From a virus, in IMG/VR virus record IMGVR_UViG_3300037089_000228, positions 1 to 45,325 of that record: a stretch of 45,325 nt of DNA, one strand, 5' to 3'. Positions 863-45,325 of this stretch are shown one piece after another. Under the pieces are notes generated by a model. The model saw only the letters and a list, made by a program, of their open reading frames with translations. It made no database searches and had not been told where the DNA came from. Within the stretch, counting starts at the first letter, position 1; every line of letters begins with the position of its first letter. The position numbers were made by a program, and so were the translations under genes.

Positions 863-989
863 CTATGCTTTTTTGCTGCGTTTGTCTAGGTTATTGCCAC
901 CGCCGGGTCGGGTAGCGGCTGGTCTGAAAACTTGATCCCCTTGGCCTGCGCCTCCTCGATTTCCTGAATGAGGTCGGCAAAGCCCCCAA
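863..989. repeat. 127-bp contig overlap, copy 1 (equals 45199-45325)
   Basis: Exactly 127 bases here equal the last 127 bases of the window; base 862 (c) differs from 45198 (t). The stretch covers the fibre gene leader and the C-terminal codons of the ATP-grasp gene. An overlap of exactly 127 is the usual largest k-mer of short-read assemblers, so it most likely marks where a circular or permuted genome was closed. Confidence 0.95.
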
Positions 990-14099: not shown

Positions 14100-14765
14100 T
14101 CAGTACTTCGCAAAGAGCGTGTGCTCCGGCTTCCACAGCTGGTCCCAGACCCGCTCCCATTCCCACGGTCCCGCCGAGACGGGCGGGCCGGGATGGCGAT
14201 CCCCGTAGAAGGTGGCCCCCGGCACGACCGGGCGGGCCAGCAGGATTTCCTGACACTTCTCGTAGAAAGCCTTGCTGCGCGTAAGTAGCGCCTTGCGGGA
14301 GGCGACGAAGAACGGGTGAGGCGAAAAGTACATGACCGGCGGCGCCGGACAGGTGAACAGCTGCACGAAGATTTCCCACACCGCCCGGTCCCAGACGTGC
14401 CCGTAGCAAAGCCCCTCGACGCGGTGGGGTTCGCACGACGCCCAGAAGTAAATCCCCGTCGCGGGGGTGAGGCACGCCCAGATCGCGGAGGACGGGAAGT
14501 GGTTGATGACCTCGACGGCGTTCTGGCACCCGTCGAACGGGTTGGCCTGCGCAAAGAAGGTCCATTCCGCGAGTGAGTCGTAGCGGTCGATGATGTGGTG
14601 CAGGAAGGTGTGGTCCTCCAGCCCCACGTTGGGCAGCGGAATCTCGCCCGGAACCTCCAGCCCGCCCTTGTTGTAAATCGTGATCTTGATATCCGGGCGC
14701 AAGGTGTTCATCCACGCCAGCTGCATGGGGTCTTCCTTGTAACGGGCAATGACGAGTTCGATCAT
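14100..14765 (-). CDS. DUF3431-like protein (glycan cassette, copy 1)
   Basis: 221 residues. It starts IELVIARYKEDPMQLAWM and continues with DIKITIYNKG (25-34), LPNVGLEDHTFLHHIIDRYD (44-63) and WTFFAQANPFDG (68-79). This is the DUF3431 signature: 'YNKG ... LPNVGxExxTxLxHIIxxYDxLA ... F.Q..PFDH'. The family is found near glycosyltransferases and is considered a glycosyltransferase-like fold, with no proven reaction. It is the last gene of the cassette. The next 192 bases lead to the capsid gene. It is a diverged paralogue of 14769-15386; both share the HI(I/V)xRYDSLAxWTFF core. The gap to that gene is three bases. Confidence 0.75.
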   Translation of the reverse strand: MIELVIARYKEDPMQLAWMNTLRPDIKITIYNKGGLEVPGEIPLPNVGLEDHTFLHHIIDRYDSLAEWTFFAQANPFDGCQNAVEVINHFPSSAIWACLTPATGIYFWASCEPHRVEGLCYGHVWDRAVWEIFVQLFTCPAPPVMYFSPHPFFVASRKALLTRSKAFYEKCQEILLARPVVPGATFYGDRHPGPPVSAGPWEWERVWDQLWKPEHTLFAKY

Positions 14766-14768
14766 GGG

Positions 14769-15386
14769 TTAAATCCTCGCTTGGTCTTTGTATTGACTGA
14801 GCCAAAGTGATCCCAGCAGTCGTTCGCACTCCCACGGACCCATCTCGCGGGCCTGAACGAGTGCCAGCAACCGCTCATAAAAGGCCCGGCTGCGCGTGCG
14901 CAACAGTTCACGGGTAGCGGCGAAGTGGAAGCCGGGCGAGAAGATCATTTCGGTCGGCGGCTCGCAGGCGTAGAGTTCCCGCCAGACCTGCTCCACCCGC
15001 TCCCTGACCGTCAGGGCAATCAGTTCGCGGCTCACGGCCCGGCCCCGCCCATCGCCCAGCGCCCAGCAGCTTCGCTCCACGTTCATCGGCTCGGTGGGGC
15101 ACAGGAAGCACAGCCCCGGCTCGGGCAGGTGCGTCAGCTGCCCCATCGAGAAGGGCCAGCCATTCATGATGGGCACGATGCGCGGCTCGTGGTCGAAGGG
15201 GTCGGCCTGGATGAAGAACGTCCAGTCGGCCAGCGAATCATAGCGGTTGACGATGTGGCTGAAATGCACGCCGGGGTCGAGTCCGTTGTCCGTCGTGGGA
15301 TAGACCGTGACCTTGATGAAGGGGCGCAGGAACCGAGTCCATCCAATGCGCTCGGTGGAGCGGGCGATGCAAACCTCGATGCTCAT
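14769..15386 (-). CDS. DUF3431-like protein (glycan cassette, copy 2)
   Basis: 205 residues, ATG at 15386 fixed by ATGA overlap with the fucosyltransferase stop; the open frame upstream is a shadow. MSIEVCIARSTERIGWTRFL is followed by IKVTVYPTTDNG, then HFSHIVNRYDSLADWTFFIQ and ADPFDH (41-66). These match the same DUF3431 core as the neighbouring gene, but the YNKG loop is replaced by YPTTDNG. The C-terminal half keeps a conserved arrangement with the paralogue (EMIFSPGFHFAATRELLRTR, then FYE, then WECERLLGSLW). A tandem duplication followed by divergence is the likely origin. The substrate is unknown. Confidence 0.7.
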   Translation of the reverse strand: MSIEVCIARSTERIGWTRFLRPFIKVTVYPTTDNGLDPGVHFSHIVNRYDSLADWTFFIQADPFDHEPRIVPIMNGWPFSMGQLTHLPEPGLCFLCPTEPMNVERSCWALGDGRGRAVSRELIALTVRERVEQVWRELYACEPPTEMIFSPGFHFAATRELLRTRSRAFYERLLALVQAREMGPWECERLLGSLWLSQYKDQARI

Positions 15387-16210
15387 GTTTCCTTCAGGCG
15401 AAGCTCGGTGCAGAACCAGTATCCCCTCGCCATCGGCGTGTGGTTGCCCTCGATGAAGGGCACCTTCTGCGGGGTCCGCAGGAGGCCCTTGGCGCCGGCG
15501 TCCGCGTCCACCCCCGAGAGGTCGGGGCAGAACACGCGCTCGTGGGTGCCCAGTTCCGCGCCCCACCATGAGAAGGTCGAGTTGGGCCGCAGCAGCACCT
15601 TGGCGCGCAGGAGCACCGCCCAGTCGGGCAGCCAGTCGAGGCGGCACTTGTCGCCCTCCAGCTTCCCCTTCTCGTGGTCATTCAATTCGTTCCACGGCAA
15701 CCCCACCGGGATGGCCGGGATGCGGTAGTGCGTTTCGCCGTCCAGCCAGTAGAGCTTGCTCTTGTCCAGTCCGTACTGGTCGCAGCAGTCCGTGAAGGAA
15801 TTGCGGTCAATCAGCACCAGCGGGTTGCAGGAATAGGTGTAATCCCCCTCCCGCACGTTGGCGACCAGTTCCATCGCGGGCACGTCCTTGACCAGCTCGG
15901 CGTACTCCGGGCGAAGCGTAAACCACTCCCGCGCCTTGGCGCGGCTGTAATAGTCGAGGTTCTTCTGCATCTGCCCCATGCCGATGATGGTGACGCCGCT
16001 CTCGCCGTCCCACTTCTCGCACTCGGTGTTGGGCCGCTCGGGCAAATCCTGGTCCGCCGGGGCGTTGGGCGGGATGACGAAAAACTTGTGCAGGATGCCG
16101 GTCAGGCACCGCAGCTCGAAGCCGTGCTTTTCGGCATAGGCGCGGGCGAAGGCGTACTCGAACATCTGGTTGCCGAGGCCGCCGGCCAGTCGTACTTGAA
16201 CGAAGCTCAT
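15383..16210 (-). CDS. GT11 family fucosyltransferase (alpha-1,2-type)
   Basis: 275 residues. The N-terminal nucleotide-sugar motif LAGGLGNQMFEYAFARAYA (8-26) is the hallmark of GT11 alpha-1,2-fucosyltransferases. The central VREGDY (119-124) corresponds to the family HxRRGDY motif, with the leading His replaced and one Arg replaced by Glu. RPNSTFSWWGAELG (208-221) matches the family NSSFSWWxA motif. The enzyme would transfer fucose, or a related deoxyhexose, from a GDP-sugar to a glycan. No GDP-fucose synthesis genes are present, so the donor must come from the host. It is ATGA-coupled to both neighbours. The altered central motif may affect activity or donor choice. Confidence 0.85.
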   Translation of the reverse strand: MSFVQVRLAGGLGNQMFEYAFARAYAEKHGFELRCLTGILHKFFVIPPNAPADQDLPERPNTECEKWDGESGVTIIGMGQMQKNLDYYSRAKAREWFTLRPEYAELVKDVPAMELVANVREGDYTYSCNPLVLIDRNSFTDCCDQYGLDKSKLYWLDGETHYRIPAIPVGLPWNELNDHEKGKLEGDKCRLDWLPDWAVLLRAKVLLRPNSTFSWWGAELGTHERVFCPDLSGVDADAGAKGLLRTPQKVPFIEGNHTPMARGYWFCTELRLKET

Positions 16211-16767
16211 GGGTAGAGAAAATCCCGAATGACGAGGAGTACGTCATCGAACCGGTTGTGAATGTCCCGAAGGTCAATGAGTTCGACTCGACGGGTAGGA
16301 TCAAGCTGCAAATAAACGTCGCGGTTCTCCCGCTGGCCGATGCGAGGCTCGGTTGCCAGATCAGCCACGTCCTCGATGACGTAGATGCCGTCCTTGGCGA
16401 GGTGTGGGGAAAGGTTGCGGTAGATGGCGATCTGGTCCCAGATGCGGTGGCTGGCATCGTCAATGATGATGTCGAACCTCATGCCGCCCAACTTGGTTTC
16501 CACCTCAAACGAGCTGGTCGCGTCCAGAATCTTCACCCGGTCGTCCTGGTAGGCGGTCGGGTCGTTGTCCACGCCGTAGACCTTGCCGTTCGGGAAGTAG
16601 GCGTCCCACATCCTGAGCGAGTCACCGGAGCACACCCCGATTTCCAGCAGGGTGATGGGCTTGAGGCGCAACCGTTCAAACAGCCGCTCATAGACCTCAA
16701 GGTAGGAGTGGATGGTCCCCTTGTCGGTCAGGGGAAACCGCGCTGCAATCTGGGCGAGGGTTTCCAT
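16207..16767 (-). CDS. SAM-dependent methyltransferase, class I (sugar O-methyltransferase type)
   Basis: 186 residues. The SAM-binding loop is LLEIGVCSGDSLRMW (40-54), followed by GKVYGVDNDP (61-70) with an acidic residue for the ribose. FDIIIDDASH (98-107) is motif IV, and DGIYVIEDVADL lies near 125-136. This combination (LEIGVxxGxSLxMW, then IIDDxSH) is typical of the macrocin/mycinamicin O-methyltransferase type that methylates sugars. Placed between a GT-A enzyme and the fucosyltransferase, with TGATG and ATGA overlaps, it is best read as capping a sugar with a methyl group. Confidence 0.8.
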   Translation of the reverse strand: METLAQIAARFPLTDKGTIHSYLEVYERLFERLRLKPITLLEIGVCSGDSLRMWDAYFPNGKVYGVDNDPTAYQDDRVKILDATSSFEVETKLGGMRFDIIIDDASHRIWDQIAIYRNLSPHLAKDGIYVIEDVADLATEPRIGQRENRDVYLQLDPTRRVELIDLRDIHNRFDDVLLVIRDFLYP

Positions 16768-17516
16768 CAGGGCACCACCTGATCCAAGAGCGGGAAGATG
16801 TAGTTGCGCTTCTCCTCAACGTGGACCATGCCCTTCTTCAGGTTGCCCCAGCCCTTCTCCCGGTTCTCCGCGCACATGCGCTCGATGTTGCCCTCATAGC
16901 GGGCGGCGATGGCCTCAGCGGGGCCGATCTGATGGTAGTGCAACAGGTAGGCGGAGGGCGTGGCGAAGGGCCAGTCATGGCCGACGCGCAGCTTGCGCCC
17001 GTCATGCAGCACCGGATCGGCCTCGTGCTGCCCGATGCCAAGGGCGCTGTCCCTGACCAGCTTCGGGTTGAAAAGGCATGGCTTCGCGTACCACTTGTCG
17101 TCGGGCGCGCCGAACTTGATCTCGTCGTAAATCTGGCCAGGACCGGTCGGCAGCCGCCCCGAGAACATCTCGAAGCCGTGCGTCTTGATGACCGCGGCTC
17201 CCTTAGCCATGTACGCCGCCAGCGTCTTCGCCGCACCCTCGGGGAACCAGATGAACTCGTCGGCGTCCACCACGATCACCCAGTCAGCGGTCGTGGCCTT
17301 CCAGCAGGAATTGCACAATTCCATGTACCGCGTGTTGCTCACCTCGGGGCAGTCCCACGGGATGATGACCACGCCCTTGGGCAATCGCAGTTTCAGCGGT
17401 TGCCCTGCGTTGTGGATGACCAGCTTCGATGCGAACGTCCGGTAGTGCCGGATGATGTACGGCAGCAGCCAGGTCTCGTAGTAGAACAGAACGTGAACCT
17501 CGACCTTGATTTTCAT
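16767..17516 (-). CDS. GT-A glycosyltransferase (Glyco_tranf_2_4-like)
   Basis: 249 residues; ATG at 17516 overlaps the stop of the upstream gene as TAATG. The protein opens KIKVEVHVLFYYETWLLPYI, a family-2-type beginning ('N E..LL.ywl.Hy'), and has IVVDADEFIWFPEG (81-94), where DAD is the metal-binding DxD. HDWPFATPSAYLLHYHQIGP (about 195-214) contains the late His pair usual in this family. It lacks a signal peptide and transmembrane segments, so it acts in the cytoplasm. Acceptor unknown. Its neighbours are a GT2 enzyme upstream and a methyltransferase downstream. Confidence 0.8.
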   Translation of the reverse strand: MKIKVEVHVLFYYETWLLPYIIRHYRTFASKLVIHNAGQPLKLRLPKGVVIIPWDCPEVSNTRYMELCNSCWKATTADWVIVVDADEFIWFPEGAAKTLAAYMAKGAAVIKTHGFEMFSGRLPTGPGQIYDEIKFGAPDDKWYAKPCLFNPKLVRDSALGIGQHEADPVLHDGRKLRVGHDWPFATPSAYLLHYHQIGPAEAIAARYEGNIERMCAENREKGWGNLKKGMVHVEEKRNYIFPLLDQVVP

Positions 17517-18184
17517 TAGACACCCGCCAGTTTCCGCAAATCCTCGTCTGACTTGAAAAACGGTGCATACGCCGCCGCGTCCTTGCCGATCAGCTTGCGC
17601 AGCTGCTTCAGGTCCGGGTCGGGGTTGGCATGGTTGGGCAGCATGGAGACATGCTCCCCGGAATATCCTATCGTTCCCGGCAGGGACTTCATGCCGATCA
17701 CCCGCCGCTCCCCGTCGCCGGGCAGGCGCAGGTGGCGGTTGCGCTCCAGCCTCCAGAGGCGCGTGTCGAACCACTGGTTGTCAAAGGCAGTGATGATGGA
17801 GCAGAAGGTCGGGATCAGGTCGGAACTGAGCGCGGTCTGACAGAGCGAGGCATGCCGGGCGTTCTCGCAGTTCGACCACCAGCGCCAGCGCACGTTGTAG
17901 TAGATGGCCTGCCCCTCGCCCACGATTTCATAACCCTTGGCCAGCCACTCCTCGCACCATTCCAGCCACGTCGGGGCGTACCAGTCGTCGTCCTCCCAGA
18001 TGACCAGACCGTCGCCCTTGACCCTGCCGCCCTCGAACGCCTTGAGCAGCTTGAAGCCCATTTTCTCCGGGCCGTCCAGCACGAGCCACTGGTCGGGCGG
18101 GCGCGTCTGCCGCTCGATGTACTTCCGGCAGAGCTTCATCGCCTCGGGGCGCTTCCACGTGGCGGTGATGACGGTCAGTTTCAT
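17516..18184 (-). CDS. GT2-like glycosyltransferase
   Basis: 222 residues, start set by ATGA overlap with the methyltransferase stop. MKLTVITATWKRPEAMKLCR is the classic N-terminal nucleotide-sugar strand of family 2. It is followed by DQWLVLDG (31-38) and VIWEDDDWYAPTWLEW (61-76), the D-x-D metal site with an aromatic follower. Basic residues RLERNRHLRLPGDGERRVIG come near 150-170. No membrane segments. The C-terminal part includes SLPGTIGYSGEHVS, which may form the acceptor site. One of three GT-A enzymes in the cassette, which suggests an oligosaccharide of at least three to four sugars. Confidence 0.8.
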   Translation of the reverse strand: MKLTVITATWKRPEAMKLCRKYIERQTRPPDQWLVLDGPEKMGFKLLKAFEGGRVKGDGLVIWEDDDWYAPTWLEWCEEWLAKGYEIVGEGQAIYYNVRWRWWSNCENARHASLCQTALSSDLIPTFCSIITAFDNQWFDTRLWRLERNRHLRLPGDGERRVIGMKSLPGTIGYSGEHVSMLPNHANPDPDLKQLRKLIGKDAAAYAPFFKSDEDLRKLAGV

Positions 18185-18774
18185 GGCTTGCCGTTGCGGT
18201 ACGCCCGCATCCCGTTCTGGTGGTGGTCGAGCGGATACTTTTCCATGAACAGGAACCACGGCTCCCACGGGAAGCCGATGAGTTCCAGCGCCTCGTTGAC
18301 GCAGATGCCGAACTCGGGAATCTCCGGGCCGGTGTACTCGTAGCCCGTGCGCTGCGACTTCGGGTTGGTGTCGTGGTACAGCATGAAGCCGCCCCTCACC
18401 ACCTTGCTAAAGAAATTGAAGGTGTCCAGAATGACGCCGTTGCGCGAGTGGTTGCCGTCCACAAACACGAGGTCGAGCCCGCCGGGCACGAGGTAGAACC
18501 CCTCCTCGGACTTGGTGCGGATCATCACGGCGCCGGGAAACGGGTCGGGACATTCATCGTGCAGGAGGAGGCTGGGTTCCACCCCCCAGTAGCGGATGGT
18601 TGAGCCGCGGTCCTCCAGAAACTTCTTCATGCCCCGCGCCGTGGCGCCATTGTAGGTGCCGATCTCGCAGACGCGCACCTCCGCCTTCTTGCAAAGCTCC
18701 GAGAGCGCGGCGTCCATCACGTCGCAGTCCTCCTCGAACATCATGCCATACCGCTCAAATAATGTGTGCTTCAT
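18181..18774 (-). CDS. SAM-dependent methyltransferase, class I (Methyltransf_24-like)
   Basis: 197 residues, ATG 18774 chosen because AAGGA precedes it at good spacing; the longer frame upstream is a shadow. Motif I is VRVCEIGTYNGATARGMKKF (33-52), then RYWGVEPS (61-68), and LDLVFVDGNHSRNGVILD (100-117), the Methyltransf_24 'D..fiDG.Hs' motif. An HDTNP sequence near 134-138 is the usual late His-Asp. The family includes enzymes acting on sugars and small molecules. Two bases separate it from the upstream glycosyltransferase stop, and ATGA couples it to the next glycosyltransferase. Confidence 0.8.
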   Translation of the reverse strand: MKHTLFERYGMMFEEDCDVMDAALSELCKKAEVRVCEIGTYNGATARGMKKFLEDRGSTIRYWGVEPSLLLHDECPDPFPGAVMIRTKSEEGFYLVPGGLDLVFVDGNHSRNGVILDTFNFFSKVVRGGFMLYHDTNPKSQRTGYEYTGPEIPEFGICVNEALELIGFPWEPWFLFMEKYPLDHHQNGMRAYRNGKP

Positions 18775-18776
18775 GG

Positions 18777-19532
18777 TTACTTCCTTGGTTTCTTGAGGTG
18801 GATCACCTTGTCCTCCGTGGGCTCCTGCCCCGGTATCGGCGGCCATTCGCCCGCAGGGTAGAGCGTGCCGTCCCCGTCGCGGTGCTTCAGCTTGACCGCC
18901 GTGTCCACCCAGACCGAGATGCGGCACATGCGGCAGAGATAGTCGCAGAAATAGTCCTCCGGCAGCAGGTCGCCCGCCTTCTGGAGGTCGTGGTAGACGA
19001 CGAGGTTTTGGAAGAAGCCGTTCACCACGCTGCCGGTGTCCCGGTCGGTGTAGGAAATCTGCGGGTAAATCTTGGCAAGGTTTTCAAACAGCTGGCGATG
19101 GTAGAGCTTGAGGCCCGCCCCGCACTCCATGACCTGAAGCACGGTCTCCTTCTGCTTCTCCGCCTCAAACAGGAAGGTCGCCACCCAGTGCGGCCTGACC
19201 CCCTTGGTCGTGTAGAGCGCGCCAATGACCGGCAGCTTCTTGGACAGCAGTTGCAGGACGTGCGCGGCGTTTGATTCCACGTCATAGTCGCGGAAAAGGA
19301 GCCACTTGCACTTGCTCTTGAGAAAGTTTTCCACCAGCCGGTTGCGGGCGGGGATGAGCCCCTGGTCGCAAAAGGCCAGCACGAACTCGTAGGGGCAGTC
19401 CGGGTCGCGGGAGAGCAGGGTCAGGTCGTCCAGTTGCGCGGCGAACTGCGGGTTGAGCTGCTTGAGCGTCCGCAAATCCTTCAGCGGAGTCGCCACCATG
19501 ACCTGAATCTTCTTTGGGCGTTTATGTTTCAT
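18777..19532 (-). CDS. GT-A-like glycosyltransferase, first gene of the cassette
   Basis: 251 residues from ATG 19532 (a TTG twelve bases upstream is also open). A basic start is followed by KIQVMVATPLKDL and PYEFVLAFCDQGLIPARNRL (47-66), then WLLFRDYDVE (77-86). The order 'P..RN.l...Fl....llf.D.D' is typical of phage and bacterial GT-A glycosyltransferases; DYD is the probable metal site. YHRQLFENL (near 147-155) and LLPEDYFCDYLCRM (about 191-204) also fit. It overlaps the GroES-like gene by 11 bases, so the cassette is transcribed with the head genes. Confidence 0.75.
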   Translation of the reverse strand: MKHKRPKKIQVMVATPLKDLRTLKQLNPQFAAQLDDLTLLSRDPDCPYEFVLAFCDQGLIPARNRLVENFLKSKCKWLLFRDYDVESNAAHVLQLLSKKLPVIGALYTTKGVRPHWVATFLFEAEKQKETVLQVMECGAGLKLYHRQLFENLAKIYPQISYTDRDTGSVVNGFFQNLVVYHDLQKAGDLLPEDYFCDYLCRMCRISVWVDTAVKLKHRDGDGTLYPAGEWPPIPGQEPTEDKVIHLKKPRK

Positions 19533-21203: not shown

Positions 21204-21312
21204 GAGGGGGAATGATTGGGGGTTTGGGAGCGAAGTTTTCCACGGTCAGGCGGCCATCCGCAAAGCGCGTGGTCTTGGAGAAGATTTGGAAGCGCGGCTT
21301 GTCCTTGGTCAT
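21139..21312 (-). CDS. Small frame coupled to tailspike stop, overlapping scaffold start
   Basis: 57 residues (MTKDKPRFQIFSKTTRFADG, then RLTVENFAPKPPIIPP). The ATG overlaps the stop of the tailspike gene as ATGA, and the frame runs 65 bases into the scaffold gene in another frame. The first 30 residues look like a real beta-rich peptide; the remainder is Pro-rich and dictated by the scaffold codons. Possibly a small virion protein whose translation leads ribosomes to the scaffold start. No homology is claimed. Confidence 0.5.
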   Translation of the reverse strand: MTKDKPRFQIFSKTTRFADGRLTVENFAPKPPIIPPHARPHQPVIRPQHPAGPKPGP

Positions 21313-22586
21313 GTCGTGACGAAGCCGCCGTTGTTTACGAGCAGCGTGCCGCCGCCGTTGATGCGGTTGGTCGAGCCGCAGCTGCCGTTGGAGCAGGAGG
21401 CGTCGACGTAGACGCCGGTCTGGTTGGTGTCGGCCCAGAAGACGTTGCCGAGGATCGACACGCAGACGCAGCGATAGAGCTTGACGCAGCTGACGGTGTA
21501 GTTGCCGGCATCCTTGGGGGAGAAGTCGCTGCCACTGATGACGAGGTTGTCCACCCAGGCGCCGTAGGCCGAGGGGGAGAAGTCGATGTACTGGCAGTTG
21601 CCGCCGGGTTCGAACTCGCAGTCGGCGATGATGACCCGCGTGAGACGGCCTGAAGTTGCCGGCCCGTTAAACTCGCACGCCCCGCTTGCGAAGTCCTCGA
21701 ATTGACAGCCGGTGAACCAGAGATCGGCGGAAACCTGACCGTTCGTATGTTGCCATGTAAATCCCCACCCACCGCCCTGAAATAGGCAGTGATCGAACTT
21801 GAGGCCGTCCACGTAGGCTAAAACCCCGGTGGTCGAGCCGTCAAAGGTGCAATTGACGAAAGTGCCTCCGCCTTTATCCAGACTGACCACGTTGGTGATA
21901 TTGACGCCGTTGGTGCCCTGCGTGAAGATGCTCTTGGACACCATGATGCCAGCCACGTTGAGGTTAATGGAGTTGGTGCCACCGATGAACGAGCAGGCGT
22001 CGATGATGCTTCCGCCGTTGTAGTAAGGGGGCACAGAGGAGGCGGTGATGGTGCAGGAGCTAGTGCCGCCCGTGGTCTGCAGGGCGATGCCCCGCAAGGT
22101 GACGCTGTAGACCGTGTCGATCTTGAGGGCCTCGGAGGCGTTGCTCTGCTGGACCTTGGTGCAGTCCCGCCCGTCGCCCAGGACCGTGCACGGGACGGTG
22201 ATCGAGCTGATGGCGGCGTTGACGTAGTAGATCCCAACCCCGCCGCCGGGGAAGTAGAGCGTGCCACCGCCGTTCGCATTCAGCGCAGCGATGGCGGCGT
22301 TGATGGCGTTGGCGTTGGCCGTCTGGACGGTGCTGGTCTGGCCGGACCCGTTGACGGCGCCATAACTCTGAACATTGAAAAAAATGGAACTACTGCCCGG
22401 ACCAACTACATCGCCGGCTCCACCCGTGGCTGTCACTTTCACAATGCCCGTGCCCGGCTTGGGATCAACCGTGATGCCCGTTCCCGCAAGAATCTGCGAG
22501 ACCCCCGGCGCCGCCGTGCTGGGCTGGACTACGGCAGAGGACCGGGCCTGCGCGCTCAGTCCCGATGAAAAGACCTTGCGGGCCAT
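21309..22586 (-). CDS. Tailspike-type beta-helix protein (pectate-lyase-like)
   Basis: 425 residues. An N-terminal Ser/Ala/Gly-rich segment (1-70) leads to FFNVQSYGAVNGSG (about 69-82) and ANAINAAIAALNANGGGTLY (91-110). This is the start of the pectate lyase_3 / GH28-type right-handed beta helix ('v.dfGAkGDG.tDdt.Ai..Ai.a.....g..v..P.G.Y'). Repeating turns rich in Asn, Gly and Cys follow (SIIDACSFIGGTNSIN, FVNCTFDGSTTG, VIIADCEFEPGGNCQYIDFS). There are many cysteines for a phage spike. Such proteins bind or cut surface polysaccharide. Its location among portal and scaffold genes rather than with the fibre is unusual. No clear catalytic Asp pair could be assigned. Confidence 0.75.
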   Translation of the reverse strand: MARKVFSSGLSAQARSSAVVQPSTAAPGVSQILAGTGITVDPKPGTGIVKVTATGGAGDVVGPGSSSIFFNVQSYGAVNGSGQTSTVQTANANAINAAIAALNANGGGTLYFPGGGVGIYYVNAAISSITVPCTVLGDGRDCTKVQQSNASEALKIDTVYSVTLRGIALQTTGGTSSCTITASSVPPYYNGGSIIDACSFIGGTNSINLNVAGIMVSKSIFTQGTNGVNITNVVSLDKGGGTFVNCTFDGSTTGVLAYVDGLKFDHCLFQGGGWGFTWQHTNGQVSADLWFTGCQFEDFASGACEFNGPATSGRLTRVIIADCEFEPGGNCQYIDFSPSAYGAWVDNLVISGSDFSPKDAGNYTVSCVKLYRCVCVSILGNVFWADTNQTGVYVDASCSNGSCGSTNRINGGGTLLVNNGGFVTT

Positions 22587-32560: not shown

Positions 32561-33322
32561 ATGAAACTCTACAAGCTCACCACGCAGGACGGCTATACCC
32601 GCTACCACGAAACTAACGAGACGCTTTGGTCTAAGGGCAAGACCGTCGAAAAGCCCGCCAAGGATAATCCGCGGCTTTGCACCGCGGATGTCGTGCACGC
32701 CACGGTTGACCTTGATCTGGCGCTGCTGCTCAACCTGAATCAGGGCAATATCAGCAACCCGCAACCGTGGGAAGCCAAGGGCAAACCGGTGGTGCGCGAT
32801 TACGGCAAGGTGGGCTGCTTCAAGCTCACCACGGTCAAAAAGCTGCCGGTGCCCGCATGGTACTCCAATGCAACCAAGGCGCAGAGGGTGCGCGTGCGGT
32901 TCGCCATTTTGTGTGCCCGCTCGGTGCTTTCCATTTATGAGTCGAGGTATCCGGAAGACAAGCGACCTAGCGCGGCCATCGAAGCAGCGGAACGCTGGTT
33001 GGATGGCCGCGCGTCGGCGCAAGAACTACGGAACGCCGCCGACGCCGCCGCCGACGCCGCCGCCGCCGCCTCCGCCGCCTCCGCCGCCTACGCCGCCTCC
33101 GCCGACGCCGCCTACGCCGCCGCCGCCTCCGCCGCCTCCGCCGCCTACGCCGCCGCCGCCTACGCCGCCGCCGCCTCCGCCGCCTCCGCCGCCTACGCCG
33201 CCTCCGCCGCCGCCGACGCCTCCGCCGCCGACGCCGACGCCGCCGCCTTAAAAAGCAAAATGCCGCCGATTGATTTCGGGGTCTTTGCGCGGCAGGCGGT
33301 GGCCGCTGAAATGAAGGAGTGA
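32561..33322 (+). CDS. Repeat protein with long Ala-rich helix
   Basis: 253 residues. The N-terminal 150 residues (MKLYKLTTQDGYTRYHETNE, then GCFKLTTVKKLPVPAWYSNA, RFAILCARSVLSIYESRYPE) match a common phage/bacterial unknown family with a YKLT start and a later 'Y....P.....i.aAe.wl.g'. A 71-codon tract (33035-33247) of Ala with regular Asp, Ser and Tyr (AADAAADAAAAASAASAAYA) then forms a very regular helix. The C-terminus resumes with IDFGVFARQAVAAEMKE. Proteins with the same 'AAxAAAxAA' helices occur as phage or immunity-type proteins of unknown role. No ribosome site was found. First gene of the second early group. Confidence 0.7.
   Translation: MKLYKLTTQDGYTRYHETNETLWSKGKTVEKPAKDNPRLCTADVVHATVDLDLALLLNLNQGNISNPQPWEAKGKPVVRDYGKVGCFKLTTVKKLPVPAWYSNATKAQRVRVRFAILCARSVLSIYESRYPEDKRPSAAIEAAERWLDGRASAQELRNAADAAADAAAAASAASAAYAASADAAYAAAASAASAAYAAAAYAAAASAASAAYAASAAADASAADADAAALKSKMPPIDFGVFARQAVAAEMKE
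33035..33247 (+). repeat. GCC-based triplet tract coding Ala-rich helix
   Basis: Nearly pure GCC codons with periodic GAC, TCC and TAC, in units of GCCGCCNNC. The tract leaves all frames open: poly-Pro in another plus frame and poly-Arg on the minus strand, which create long spurious frames. Slippage-prone, so length may vary between individuals. Confidence 0.9.
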
Positions 33323-33550: not shown

Positions 33551-34132
33551 ATGTGCCAGTACAAATCAGCCATCGTTCTCCGCGACGAGAAATGCAAGGG
33601 CGGTTTCCAGCTGCTCTTTTCGCCGTGGACGGAAAGCCATGACGAGCTTTGCATCATCCACAAGCTGCTGGTCAACGACAAGAAGCTCCAGCTTGCCAAG
33701 GTGGAATTTTCGCCCGCAAGCATGGACAAGGCCCACCTGATCGACGAGTACAAGCTTACGATAGACGAGGAGCGCACCCCGGACTGGTTCGACAAGGAAA
33801 TGCAGGAGAAGGTCACGAATCGCCTGCGTAACTATATCAAGTCCATCATCGTCGATGGCGACGTGGAGCTACTCATCGGCGGTCAGTTCGTGATCGCGCC
33901 AAGCGCCAAAATCCAATGCGCCCGTTCAATGGTGATCTCTGCGATTTGGGGTGGCACCGTGAATGCGATTTGGGGTGGCACCGTGAATGAGATTTGGGGT
34001 GGCACCGTGAATGAGATTCGGGGTGGCACCGTGAATGCGATTCGGGGTGGCACCGTGAATGAGATTTGGGGTGGCACCGTGAATGTTCATTCCGGCGCAA
34101 TCATCGTCAAAGACAATCGCCCCAAGAAATGA
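33551..34132 (+). CDS. Protein with six 8-residue IWGGTVN repeats
   Basis: 193 residues. The N-terminal 130 residues are an unknown alpha/beta domain (YKSAIVLRDEKCKGGFQLLF, HDELCIIHKLLVNDKKLQLA, DEYKLTIDEERTPDWFDKEM). At residues 131-178 come six copies of [A/E]-I-[W/R]-GGTVN, then a short end (VHSGAIIVKDNRPKK). The periodic I/W, GG and TV strongly suggest stacked short beta turns, as in solenoid or polyglycine-like folds. Similar IxGGT(V/I)xx repeats are known in phage hypothetical proteins. The 24-bp DNA repeat would permit rapid change in repeat number. Confidence 0.7.
   Translation: MCQYKSAIVLRDEKCKGGFQLLFSPWTESHDELCIIHKLLVNDKKLQLAKVEFSPASMDKAHLIDEYKLTIDEERTPDWFDKEMQEKVTNRLRNYIKSIIVDGDVELLIGGQFVIAPSAKIQCARSMVISAIWGGTVNAIWGGTVNEIWGGTVNEIRGGTVNAIRGGTVNEIWGGTVNVHSGAIIVKDNRPKK
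33941..34084 (+). repeat. Six tandem 24-bp coding repeats
   Basis: Units begin at 33941, 33965, 33989, 34013, 34037 and 34061. Consensus is G[C/A]GATT[T/C]GGGG followed by TGGCACCGTGAAT. Only two positions vary, in different combinations (units 1-2 identical; units 3 and 6 identical), which suggests recent expansion and recombination among units. Confidence 0.95.
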
Positions 34133-38602: not shown

Positions 38603-38796
38603 CCACGGCCCGGCTCCTCCTCGCCATGAACAAGCTCATTTGTCTTTTAGTTGGGCACAATTTCCAGCTAATTTCCAAGAAGCGCCACGGCCTTTCATTC
38701 ATCAGAAAGTACAAATGTCAGAGATGCGACTTGTTCTGCGTGGAAGGCATCCATCATAGGAGTCGGCCAACATTAAGATGCTATCGCGTCCCATGA
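38599..38796 (+). CDS. DUF1660-like small zinc protein
   Basis: 65 residues; start overlaps the previous stop. MNKLICLLVGHNFQLISKKR (10-29) followed by KYKCQRCDLFCVEG matches the DUF1660 pattern 'l.CllfGHk.......y.CkRCg' of prophage proteins: a Cys, a His and a CxxC pair bind one metal. ATGA overlap with the lysozyme-like gene. Confidence 0.65.
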   Translation: MTTARLLLAMNKLICLLVGHNFQLISKKRHGLSFIRKYKCQRCDLFCVEGIHHRSRPTLRCYRVP

Positions 38797-39233
38797 AGAC
38801 TGTTTTGCTCCTTACCATTGCCACGTTCGCCATGACCGCGCACGCCCGCGATGCTGTGCAGCCGGACTGCGACCTTACCCGCCTGCTTTCTGCCATTGCC
38901 GCGAAGGAGAACCAGCCGCAGGACAAGGTGGGACCGCACGGTGAGCGCAGTATCTATTCGATCTCCGCCGCTGTGTGGCATGACAGGATGCCAGGATGGC
39001 CGTTCTATGTCTGCACGGAGCAGTCCAACATGGCCAAGCATTGCGCGATTATGCAGTTGAACTGGCTGGCTAATGAGTGTGCCAAGGCTGGCATCCACCC
39101 CGGCGTGTACGAGCTTGGTTCAGCGTGGAATACTGGCTTGGCTGGCTTCATCAAGCTGCACTCCATGCACGTCGAAATCCAATACGGTCGGGACGTGGAA
39201 AACCTCTACACCGCCCAAAAGAGCCAATCCTAG
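38793..39233 (+). CDS. Exported lysozyme/transglycosylase-like protein (endolysin candidate)
   Basis: 146 residues from ATG 38793 (ATGA overlap); a start five codons earlier is less likely. A Sec signal peptide MKTVLLLTIATFAMTAHARD is followed by LLSAIAAKENQPQDKVGPHG (about 31-50) and YSISAAVWHDRMPGWPF. This resembles the SLT/lysozyme active region: 'l..aI...Es......G..G...iS.avw'. Glu39 is the possible catalytic residue. HPGVYELGSAWNTGLAGFIK (about 105-124) resembles the later 'A..wN.G' of transglycosylases. It would cut peptidoglycan in the periplasm after export. It is not next to the holin-like genes on the opposite strand. Confidence 0.65.
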   Translation: MKTVLLLTIATFAMTAHARDAVQPDCDLTRLLSAIAAKENQPQDKVGPHGERSIYSISAAVWHDRMPGWPFYVCTEQSNMAKHCAIMQLNWLANECAKAGIHPGVYELGSAWNTGLAGFIKLHSMHVEIQYGRDVENLYTAQKSQS

Positions 39234-42617: not shown

Positions 42618-42755
42618 CTACTGGAGCCAAACAACCGTGCCCACCGTGGTCGAGAGGGTCGTCGTCGTGTGGATGGACGCCTCGGCGGAGGCGGCAAGCC
42701 CCAGCGCGAGCGACGCGAGGAGTGGGATGATCTTCTTTATTTGAAAGGTTACCAA
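42618..42755 (-). CDS. 45-residue exported peptide (TTG start)
   Basis: TTG 42755 overlaps the end of the glycine-rich gene and has AAGG five bases before it. Starts with a signal-like segment (QIKKIIPLLASLALGLAASA-EA) followed by a Thr-rich tail (TTTTLSTTVGTVVWLQ). Too short for a domain. An exported or membrane peptide of unknown function. Confidence 0.5.
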   Translation of the reverse strand: MVTFQIKKIIPLLASLALGLAASAEASIHTTTTLSTTVGTVVWLQ

Positions 42756-43669
42756 ATGACCTTAATGAACCCGTTGAATCCAGCGGTGGAAGAAGATGAG
42801 CCGCCGTTGCCAATCGAGCTACCCGGGTAGTCAGGATCGCCCTGCCCGGCTCCTGTAGCCCCGCTGCCGGTGGTTGTGGAAGAAGAAAGAGGCGAACTGA
42901 GAGCATCTCCTGAACCGCCGCCGCCTTGGGCCCCGTACCCAAACCCGGCTTGCGCTCCGCCACCACCACCACCGCCGAATCGCCCGCCGCCTCCGCCGCC
43001 GCCCGGGTCGTCGTTGGAACCGCCCGTGCCGCCAGAAAGGGAAATCCCGGCCGTGGCCGCTGTGCCTGAGCCACTCGTAGCCCCTGCAGCACCGCCCGTC
43101 GAATTTGTAGCCGCACCACCGCCAGTGCCTGATCCTGCGCTGGGGTTATTTCCCGCCTGTGCAGGGCTTCCTCCACCAGCCCCCGCTGGAGTCACTACGT
43201 TGTCTTCCCAACCCCCGCCGCCACCACCGCCTGCGGTGCAATCGACCCCCGTTCCTTGGGCCCTTGCGTAGCCTCCGCCACCTGAAGCATGATAGGAACC
43301 CCCGGTGCCCGTTCCGCCCAATCCGCCACCCGGGAAAGCGGCCGAAGAACCAATTGCCAGTCCCCCTGAAGGCACCCATAAGGTGATGACATTGCCCGGC
43401 GTGAGCCCAGAATACGTGGCAGTTGTAAAACCACCGCCGCCGCCCGTGCCGTTAGCTGTGGCCGGGTGACCGCCTCCGGCTCCCCACAGCTTGAACGTGA
43501 CCGTGGTCACCCCAGCGGGAATCGTCCATGTCTGGGTGGAGCCAGTGGCGTTGAAGGAGGCCGAGCCGTGCGGTACCGGCGCGTTCCAAAAGCTGTACGG
43601 GAACGGCGTCGCGACGGCCATCGCCGCCGACATGAACAACGCGGTCAGGTAGCTGAACAGTGATTTCAT
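42749..43669 (-). CDS. Exported glycine-rich tail-tip-like protein
   Basis: 306 residues. A Sec signal peptide (MKSLFSYLTALFMSAAMAVA) is followed by STQTWTIPAGVTTVTFKLWG (44-63), which is the 'glycine-rich domain' start seen in phage tail-tip proteins. The rest is Gly stretches of three to eight residues with Ser/Thr/Ala/Asn (GGGGGFTTATYSGL, GGGGGGGWED, GGGGGGGRFGGGGGGG), typical of polyglycine-II sandwich adhesins such as the S16 gp38 tip. It ends NGFIKVIW. It probably makes contact with the host surface. The signal peptide is unexpected for a virion protein. Confidence 0.75.
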   Translation of the reverse strand: MKSLFSYLTALFMSAAMAVATPFPYSFWNAPVPHGSASFNATGSTQTWTIPAGVTTVTFKLWGAGGGHPATANGTGGGGGFTTATYSGLTPGNVITLWVPSGGLAIGSSAAFPGGGLGGTGTGGSYHASGGGGYARAQGTGVDCTAGGGGGGGWEDNVVTPAGAGGGSPAQAGNNPSAGSGTGGGAATNSTGGAAGATSGSGTAATAGISLSGGTGGSNDDPGGGGGGGRFGGGGGGGAQAGFGYGAQGGGGSGDALSSPLSSSTTTGSGATGAGQGDPDYPGSSIGNGGSSSSTAGFNGFIKVIW

Positions 43670-43672
43670 GGC

Positions 43673-44533
43673 TTAGAAATTCTGCACGACGTTGCCGTAG
43701 TAGGTTCCGGAAAAATCCACTATGGTCCAAACGTCAGTATGAGCTCCGACCGTCTGCGTCGGCTGCGATCCGGCCACCCACTTGATCGAGTTGCCCCAAG
43801 TGACGGTGTAATTCGAGGCTGTGTTCGTGATAGCCACGACGAGCGTCTGTCCATCCAGGGCGTTGCTAAACGTTACTGTGTTCAGATTCCCGTTCAGCGT
43901 GATCGAGTGGTTGTTTCCGGACGCCCAGTTGATCGTGACGGCGTTACCCGACTCCGTGTCGGCCGTCGTTACGGGCATCAGGTTCTGATTGGTTGTGCCC
44001 CTATTGGCGTTCGAGCTGACCGAGATTGTCGTGAAAGCCCCGGTGCTGGGAGCTGTGCCTCCAATTGCAGGAGGCGAAGCAAGATATGTTGAGAACCCTG
44101 TCCCCGATACCGTACTGGAAGCCGAGAGCGTCGTGAAGGCCCCCGTGCTTGCTGTCGTGCTGCCGATGGCGGGAGGCGACGCGAAAAGAGAGGTGATTCC
44201 CGCACCGCTGACCGTACTGGAGAAAGTGCCCGTGGTCGCCGATACCGCCGCAAGCGTCGAGGTGCCGGTCACCGTCAGTCCCGCGAAGGTCGGGCTGCTG
44301 CCCGTGCCGATGGTCTGCGGGGTGGAAAGCGTGACGGCGCCGAGCAGAGTACCAAACCGGCAATCCAAGGTCTGCCCGGCCGGCAGGATGTAGTAGGTGA
44401 TGCCCGGCGTGTTGAAGGTGCCGGTGCCCGTGCCATCGGGCAGCACGGTAACGGCCTGTTGCGCGTTCCCTGTGGTATCCCATAGCGCGGAACCCGCGAG
44501 GGCAAGGAGTGAAAGGAGCAGGAGCTTTTTCAT
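43673..44533 (-). CDS. Exported fibre-like protein with repeated shaft motif, allele 2
   Basis: 286 residues. A signal peptide (MKKLLLLSLLALAGSALWD) precedes a beta shaft with repeats (ASPPAIGSTTASTGAFTTLS; ASPPAIGGTAPSTGAFTTIS), two clear copies and a third degenerate one (GSSPTFAGLTVTG). This repeat style is known from phage tail fibres. The C-terminal 100 residues (VTINWASGNNHSITLNGNLN, then SNALDGQTLVVAITNTASNY) form a compact beta domain ending with TYYGNVVQNF. It follows the fibre adaptor gene by four bases and precedes the glycine-rich gene. A shaft/knob role is likely. Confidence 0.75.
   Translation of the reverse strand: MKKLLLLSLLALAGSALWDTTGNAQQAVTVLPDGTGTGTFNTPGITYYILPAGQTLDCRFGTLLGAVTLSTPQTIGTGSSPTFAGLTVTGTSTLAAVSATTGTFSSTVSGAGITSLFASPPAIGSTTASTGAFTTLSASSTVSGTGFSTYLASPPAIGGTAPSTGAFTTISVSSNANRGTTNQNLMPVTTADTESGNAVTINWASGNNHSITLNGNLNTVTFSNALDGQTLVVAITNTASNYTVTWGNSIKWVAGSQPTQTVGAHTDVWTIVDFSGTYYGNVVQNF
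44316..44423. repeat. Right copy of the 108-bp contig-end repeat
   Basis: Equals 1-108. Lies in the N-terminal shaft codons of the exported fibre-like gene; left flank of the allelic segment. Confidence 0.95.
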
Positions 44534-45198: not shown

Positions 45199-45325
45199 CT
45201 ATGCTTTTTTGCTGCGTTTGTCTAGGTTATTGCCACCGCCGGGTCGGGTAGCGGCTGGTCTGAAAACTTGATCCCCTTGGCCTGCGCCTCCTCGATTTCC
45301 TGAATGAGGTCGGCAAAGCCCCCAA
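45199..45325. repeat. 127-bp contig overlap, copy 2
   Basis: Equals 863-989 exactly, to the last base of the window. Confidence 0.95.
45222..45325 (-). CDS. ATP-grasp gene, 3' end only (overlap copy)
   Basis: The last 33 complete codons and stop of the ATP-grasp enzyme, identical to 886-989, running off the right edge. It is the same gene as 886-2166 seen again through the contig overlap. Confidence 0.9.
   Translation of the reverse strand, partial: GGFADLIQEIEEAQAKGIKFSDQPLPDPAVAIT

Follow-up and report, generated by a model that had tools for sequence, protein, structure and literature searches.

Fibre-like phage proteins that begin with signal peptides raise the question of where such proteins are folded and used, as classical fibres of the T7 gp17 type are not known to have a signal peptide and are assembled in the cytoplasm. 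We analysed a virus record of 45,325 bases (IMGVR_UViG_3300037089_000228; hereafter the window, meaning this whole stretch of DNA), for which an original prediction had proposed Sec signal peptides on three consecutive products at the right end and on a left-end allele. These proteins were thought either to be exported, joining particles or the cell surface from outside, or to use the segments as hydrophobic anchors. The major capsid protein of this virus has a distant likeness to those of HTVC010P-type and Vibrio podophages (≤34% identity among the matches listed), and the tail-region DNA had no match in phage records.

The gene order at the right end, on the minus strand, is P0004, P0001, P0002, P0003, the holin-like P0006, and the lipoprotein-like P0005, and only a few nucleotides separate P0004, P0001, and P0002, i.e., an anchor, a signal-bearing fibre, and a glycine-rich protein are tightly packed. 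P0004 (44538..45188, minus; 216 aa) received no signal call and matches phrog_1640 (tail protein; E 5.7e-10), a family also matched by the N terminus of BcepC6B gp18; judged by its sequence, it is a virion anchor of the type seen at the gp17 N terminus, with no tip that can be recognised. P0001 (44533-43673, minus; 286 aa) is fibre-like and starts with MKKLLLLSLLALAGSALWDTTGNA, followed by QQAVTV after the predicted cut. Its signal peptide spans 44462..44533 (minus); aligned relatives suggest a cut after residue 24, whereas our rule alone would put the cut at an earlier position, after residue 13. The glycine-rich P0002 (43669-42749, minus; 306 aa) starts with MKSLFSYLTALFMSAAMAVA, then TPFPYSFW after the predicted cut, and its signal peptide (43610..43669, minus; about 18-20 residues), called by the loose rule only, is directly followed by the conserved FPYSFW. 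P0003 (42755-42618, minus) has 45 codons from a TTG start and begins with MVTFQIKKIIPLLASLALGLAASA, then EAS after the predicted cut. Downstream lie P0006 (42367..42564, minus; 65 aa), which matches Phage_holin_2_1 below the cut-off (E 1e-3), and P0005 (41942..42370, minus; 142 aa), which carries the lipoprotein-like motif LTAC and overlaps P0006.

At the left end, P0007 (200-3, minus) is cut by the contig end and starts with MKRLLFCFLLSGPIAFA, followed by QHQSVTV after the predicted cut (signal peptide at 150-200, minus), and P0008 (200..853, minus; 217 aa) is the corresponding allele of P0004. A 127-nt exact repeat (863..989, plus; second copy at 45199-45325) marks map closure, and the stretches flanking its two copies are diverged copies of each other. 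In an independent contig, L086, which encodes P0001 at 100% identity, genes for 1135 and 426 aa run directly into P0004 and P0001. Because this contig joins the left-end 426-aa gene to P0004-P0001, the map of the window is closed, with strain alleles of one locus, comprising the anchor and the fibre start, at its two ends, as had been proposed for the left-end copy. The 426-aa protein (886-2166, minus, tail arm) has no Pfam or PHROG match. The source MAG of L086 is labelled Armatimonadetes (fen_943), which hints at the host only weakly. Between P0001 and P0007, 42 amino acids are kept over 45 shared mature codons, and the signal segments (24 versus 17 aa) can be aligned only with indels, so that the signal differs more than what follows it.

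Elsewhere in the window, a tailspike-like protein of 425 aa (21309..22586, minus) matches phrog_9707 (tail protein, E 8e-5), had no Pfam match and no signal call, and was read as a tailspike by eye; the family match is weak, and the protein is possibly a separate signal-free receptor-binding protein. The structural arm also contains a run of surface-chemistry genes (14103-18927, minus; DUF3431, two Methyltransf_24, and one Glyco_tranf_2_4), amid which lies a 275-aa protein (15383-16210) without a Pfam match. We additionally noted a tandem repeat of six 24-nt copies that are 95% alike (33943-34085), a CGCCGCCGC array (33034-33247), and a plus-strand gene for a 145-aa protein (38796-39233) that has a strong signal peptide, no Pfam match, and perhaps a lysis-related role.

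The signal peptides were called by a rule calibrated on 138 E. coli K-12 genes, with locations assigned by us. In its strict form, the rule passes 16/22 exported, 4/26 membrane, and 2/90 cytosolic proteins; in its loose form, it passes 20/22, 6/26, and 4/90, respectively. It was tightened after the BcepIL02 fibres had given two weak loose calls among 18 proteins, which we took to be false positives. Internal start codons were permitted for cases as well as for controls. Among 30 structural-arm genes scored, P0001, P0007, P0003, and P0005 received strict calls, P0002 (with one positive charge) and P0006 loose calls only, and the other 24 none, i.e., calls were limited to the fibre cassette and the lysis genes, of which P0006 specifies a membrane protein and P0005 a lipoprotein. 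The features expected for Sec export and signal peptidase I (positive start, hydrophobic core, small residues at -3 and -1) are present in P0001, P0007, and P0003 by the strict rule and in P0002 by the loose rule; a lipobox was flagged in none of these four, and P0005 has one. When the first 45 residues of each protein were shuffled 5000 times, the loose and strict rules were passed, respectively, by 6.7 and 1.1% of shuffles for P0001, 8.3 and 1.6% for P0007, 5.6 and 0.1% for P0002, and 18 and 5.6% for P0003.

The signal-bearing products had been located correctly in the original prediction, and its signal peptides hold for P0001, P0007, and P0002. In contrast, the nearest relatives, L003 and L004, are 84% identical to the window in DNA from mid-P0003 onward and lack the signal half of P0003; P0003 therefore appears to be a doubtful gene, possibly a relic, and the run of consecutive products is more safely counted as two than as three. 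By eye, L003 and L004 also encode a P0005-related protein.

The fibre character attributed to the P0001 body was supported by its C-terminal domain (residues 186-286), for which a confident model was obtained (pLDDT about 90). This domain matches a phage capsid spike (9ny6_C; Z 8.5, 91 residues, rmsd 2.7; Foldseek E 9e-4) and a tailspike depolymerase (24qj; Z 8.1, 90 residues, rmsd 3.0; Foldseek E 3e-3), as well as 177 viral models at E ≤ 0.001, many of them predicted viral fibres, at 1.5-2 Å over about 100 residues. A Z near 8 alone may reflect only a common arrangement, and the 1.5-2 Å viral matches weigh more; on these models, the tip is a predicted phage spike or fibre domain. The window proteins thus share tip domain and anchor families with classical trimeric tail fibres and tailspikes. 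The glycine-rich body ascribed to P0002 is less firmly placed: it matches Pfam Gly_rich_2 (PF21722) at 21.2 bits (E 3.2e-4), below the curated cut-off of 24.3, and its AlphaFold model is poor (pLDDT 38.5). As a query, P0002 gave no match among phage records (BLAST with the low-complexity filter on) and, on viral contigs, only the two relatives already known. P0001 and P0002 each have one mature cysteine, hence no internal disulfide, which speaks against the mechanism proposed below.

Relatives among viral contigs keep the signal while changing its sequence. L002, L082, and L083 have differing signals ahead of the same mature start as P0001, and these three, P0001, and P0007 all carry a signal and align mainly downstream of the cut. 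Likewise, the P0002 homologues in L002, L003, and L004 retain both a signal and FP.SFW. L002 encodes three adjoining signal-bearing products, a fibre and a glycine-rich protein among them, and L020, L051, L052, and L053 each have two or more adjoining signal-bearing genes. More broadly, a survey with P0001 yielded 80 loci with 62 distinct frames, of which 57 were scored after leaving out five with open 5' ends; 12 have a strict signal and 45 do not (L070 and L009, though signal-like, were scored as negative), so a signal accompanies the repeat body in some frames and is missing in others. When viral contigs were scanned by alignment, the N terminus of P0001 gave no confirmed match.

Signal-bearing fibres are also encoded by cultured phages, namely, BcepC6B (gp19), PBR31 (orf35), Bcep781 (gp49), Bcep1 (gp51), and BgManors32 (gp48), and an unannotated frame of this kind occurs in Shewanella phage QDWS. 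The QDWS frame (L137:4992-7061) has 689 codons and is not annotated as one gene, an annotated opposite-strand gene covering part of it; the QDWS record (OK094664.1) and that of Hujiaoplasma phage zrk29-1 (OP650936.1) are both 47,902 long and yielded the same match statistics in spite of unrelated stated hosts. Bcep781 gp49 and Bcep1 gp51 resemble P0001 in being fibre-type proteins with a signal peptide in a tail gene cluster, and differ in their mature N-terminal type, QFAPGQ.LTAAQLN, and, for gp49, in a body that by eye is a pectate-lyase-type spike. BcepC6B gp19 and Xanthomonas phage PBR31 orf35 are podophage signal fibres that adjoin a signal-free spike and a holin gene; their N-terminal type (ATL.PIQLLNPAGS) is by eye visibly unlike the P0001 mature start, QQAVTVLPDG, although gp19 and P0001 share a repeat region (55% over residues 80-170). 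The gp19 tip also terminates ordinary signal-free fibres.

The suggestion that exported phage adhesins would be a new arrangement went too far, since the GenBank notes on Bcep781 gp49 and Bcep1 gp51 already read "possible tail fiber; possible signal peptide domain." For PBR31, the published account discusses a signal peptide for the esterase gp40, and its genome section 3.3 is silent on gene 35 (PMC10975493). Titles and abstract openings, in a search with most subscription journals outside its scope, yielded no paper on exported or secreted tail fibres. Thus, the sighting of a fibre signal peptide is not new; its extent and pattern appeared in none of the papers searched.

We then took the mature N-terminal segment of BcepC6B gp19, without its signal, as a query (type a) against 398 Burkholderiaceae genomes and found matches in 33. 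We examined 31 loci (30 from a listing of 46 matches, plus L101), of which 29 encode a signal peptide; many of these signals end exactly at the segment start, and in others a further N-terminal segment lies between. A second mature N-terminal type was found in 12 of the 398 genomes at 15 loci, 14 of them with a signal (13 strict), and three proteins are common to both sets. In contrast, a classical fibre N terminus from the same host family gave signals in 0/26 control fibres, even though six of these share regions of 11.5-16.5 kb with signal-bearing fibres, and the control region L184 also contains a signal-bearing fibre. A phylum-wide type a search matched 5/398 genomes, two of which (G003 and G005) were already among the family-search genomes; the other three were weak matches at loci unrelated by eye and were rejected. 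As judged from these sequences, the tagged-fibre arrangement recurs in cultured phages and in many Burkholderiaceae genomes, and the window is not unique.

The conservation pattern of these proteins bears on what the N termini do. For 20 second-type proteins, mean identity is 64% over the first 32 mature residues and 33% over the last 20 signal residues; the mature start is the more conserved part in 186/190 pairs, and the bodies beyond residue 150 are related in only 14/190. For type a, the contrast is weak (signal 50%, mature start 54%; signal lower in 171/276 pairs). A positive N terminus, the length, and a cleavage-type motif recur while the hydrophobic sequence varies, and starts that are variable yet always signal-like make Sec export the economical reading. 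The P0001 and P0002 signals are supported by sequence as functional-type signal peptides kept by selection. Even cysteine counts, found in 30/36 complete signal-bearing proteins with any cysteine, compare with 29/49 other ORFs of the same loci (p 0.019) and 9/29 signal-free viral fibres, an excess that is modest, with p values that are too small because the proteins are homologous. The interpretation in the original prediction was partly supported as a whole; its export half was supported by the calibrated calls, by conservation in relatives, and by two domain-anchored surveys with their signal-free control, and we consider it likely that P0001 and P0002 are exported via their signal peptides.

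Three other readings are improbable. The N termini could stay uncleaved, with no export, and within the virion either form hydrophobic anchors or help trimerisation as helices, which would suit the fibre-like bodies and the modelling of the P0001 signal region as a helix; this is improbable, given that the hydrophobic stretch is poorly conserved, that the conserved segment starts behind the cleavage motif (a pattern weaker in type a), that charge, length, and motif recur regardless, and that the classical control fibres have no such segment. Slightly less probable still are cargo genes that alter the surface of the infected or lysogenic cell for adhesion or colonisation. Lambda Lom, an exported protein encoded among tail genes, would be of this kind; Lom is an outer-membrane barrel and not a fibre. 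Many of the cases are prophages, and Acyl_transf_3 and similar cargo genes can adjoin signal fibres; against this, the genes are packed closely against tail and lysis genes, which points to late expression, regions around signal fibres show no enrichment of surface-modifying genes (3/24 regions versus 1/20, so that the idea of these fibres travelling with O-antigen-modifying genes was not supported), and the arrangement is present in the virulent phage Bcep781, among others. That the calls merely reflect chance hydrophobic N termini or wrong start codons is very improbable: P0003 is probably such a case, and P0002 passes the loose rule only, but signals recur on dozens of homologues against none in the control.

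When a conserved start is combined with bodies that can be exchanged, docking to a fixed partner is suggested, and the second-type proteins do look like a docking segment to which varying receptor-binding bodies are joined. In the mechanism that we propose, P0001 and P0002 would be late-expressed, fibre-type adhesins with cleavable Sec signal peptides; they would be exported, fold in the periplasm, probably as trimers, and be released as folded adhesins at lysis, whereupon the conserved segment behind the cut would dock each adhesin to a fixed partner on the virions set free. The tip-less anchor P0004, encoded just upstream, could be this partner in the case of P0001, which is a guess. The outcome would be an additional receptor-binding fibre added to the virion from outside. 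Given export, we regard docking on virions as an even proposition; the explanation as a whole, from export through lysis to docking, falls somewhat below that.

Alternatively, the exported adhesins may stay off virions and bind surface glycans or receptors on the cell that made them and on its debris, which would limit superinfection and keep progeny from re-adsorbing to no purpose. BcepC6B, PBR31, Bcep781, L158, and L159 encode a separate signal-free spike or fibre alongside the signal fibre, with a weaker candidate in the window at 21309..22586, so an exported fibre need not be on virions, and the signal fibre often adjoins holin, endolysin, or spanin genes; these two features bring receptor masking almost level with external addition. 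A homologous cassette encodes, directly behind a signal-bearing fibre, a protein with a signal peptide and a Laminin_G_3 lectin domain (L005:4327-5052; E 1e-30), and T5 Llp is described as a periplasm-directed exclusion protein that affects receptor use by another means (PMC9586334), although Llp is a small lipoprotein, whereas P0001 and P0002 are fibre-like with no lipobox flagged. Masking is weakened by the docking-like N termini, by the lack of enrichment of surface-modifying genes nearby, and by the tips: a comparison of seven sets gave no support to the exported tip being a copy of the spike tip of the same phage, as the two were not paralogous, the single exception being a 28-residue shaft match in L082. 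Masking is thus a tangible but minority possibility, and we rank external addition to virions slightly ahead of it.

Receptor-binding proteins set host range, and their assembly in the cytoplasm is the usual assumption. Phage DGR proteins have been described as lacking signal peptides, an absence taken in that argument as pointing to a phage origin for variable proteins (PMC6199706); by contrast, having a signal peptide is no reason to exclude a protein as a phage fibre. For some viral attachment proteins, completion or use probably takes place outside the compartment in which particles are assembled. More tentatively, there may be a widespread second route, by which fibres are secreted before lysis, folded in the periplasm, taken up outside via a docking segment, and shareable among virions that differ in genotype and tail type. 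If some fibres are indeed exported, extracellular virion completion, fibre sharing, or exported receptor blockers would become testable in BcepC6B, PBR31, and Bcep781.
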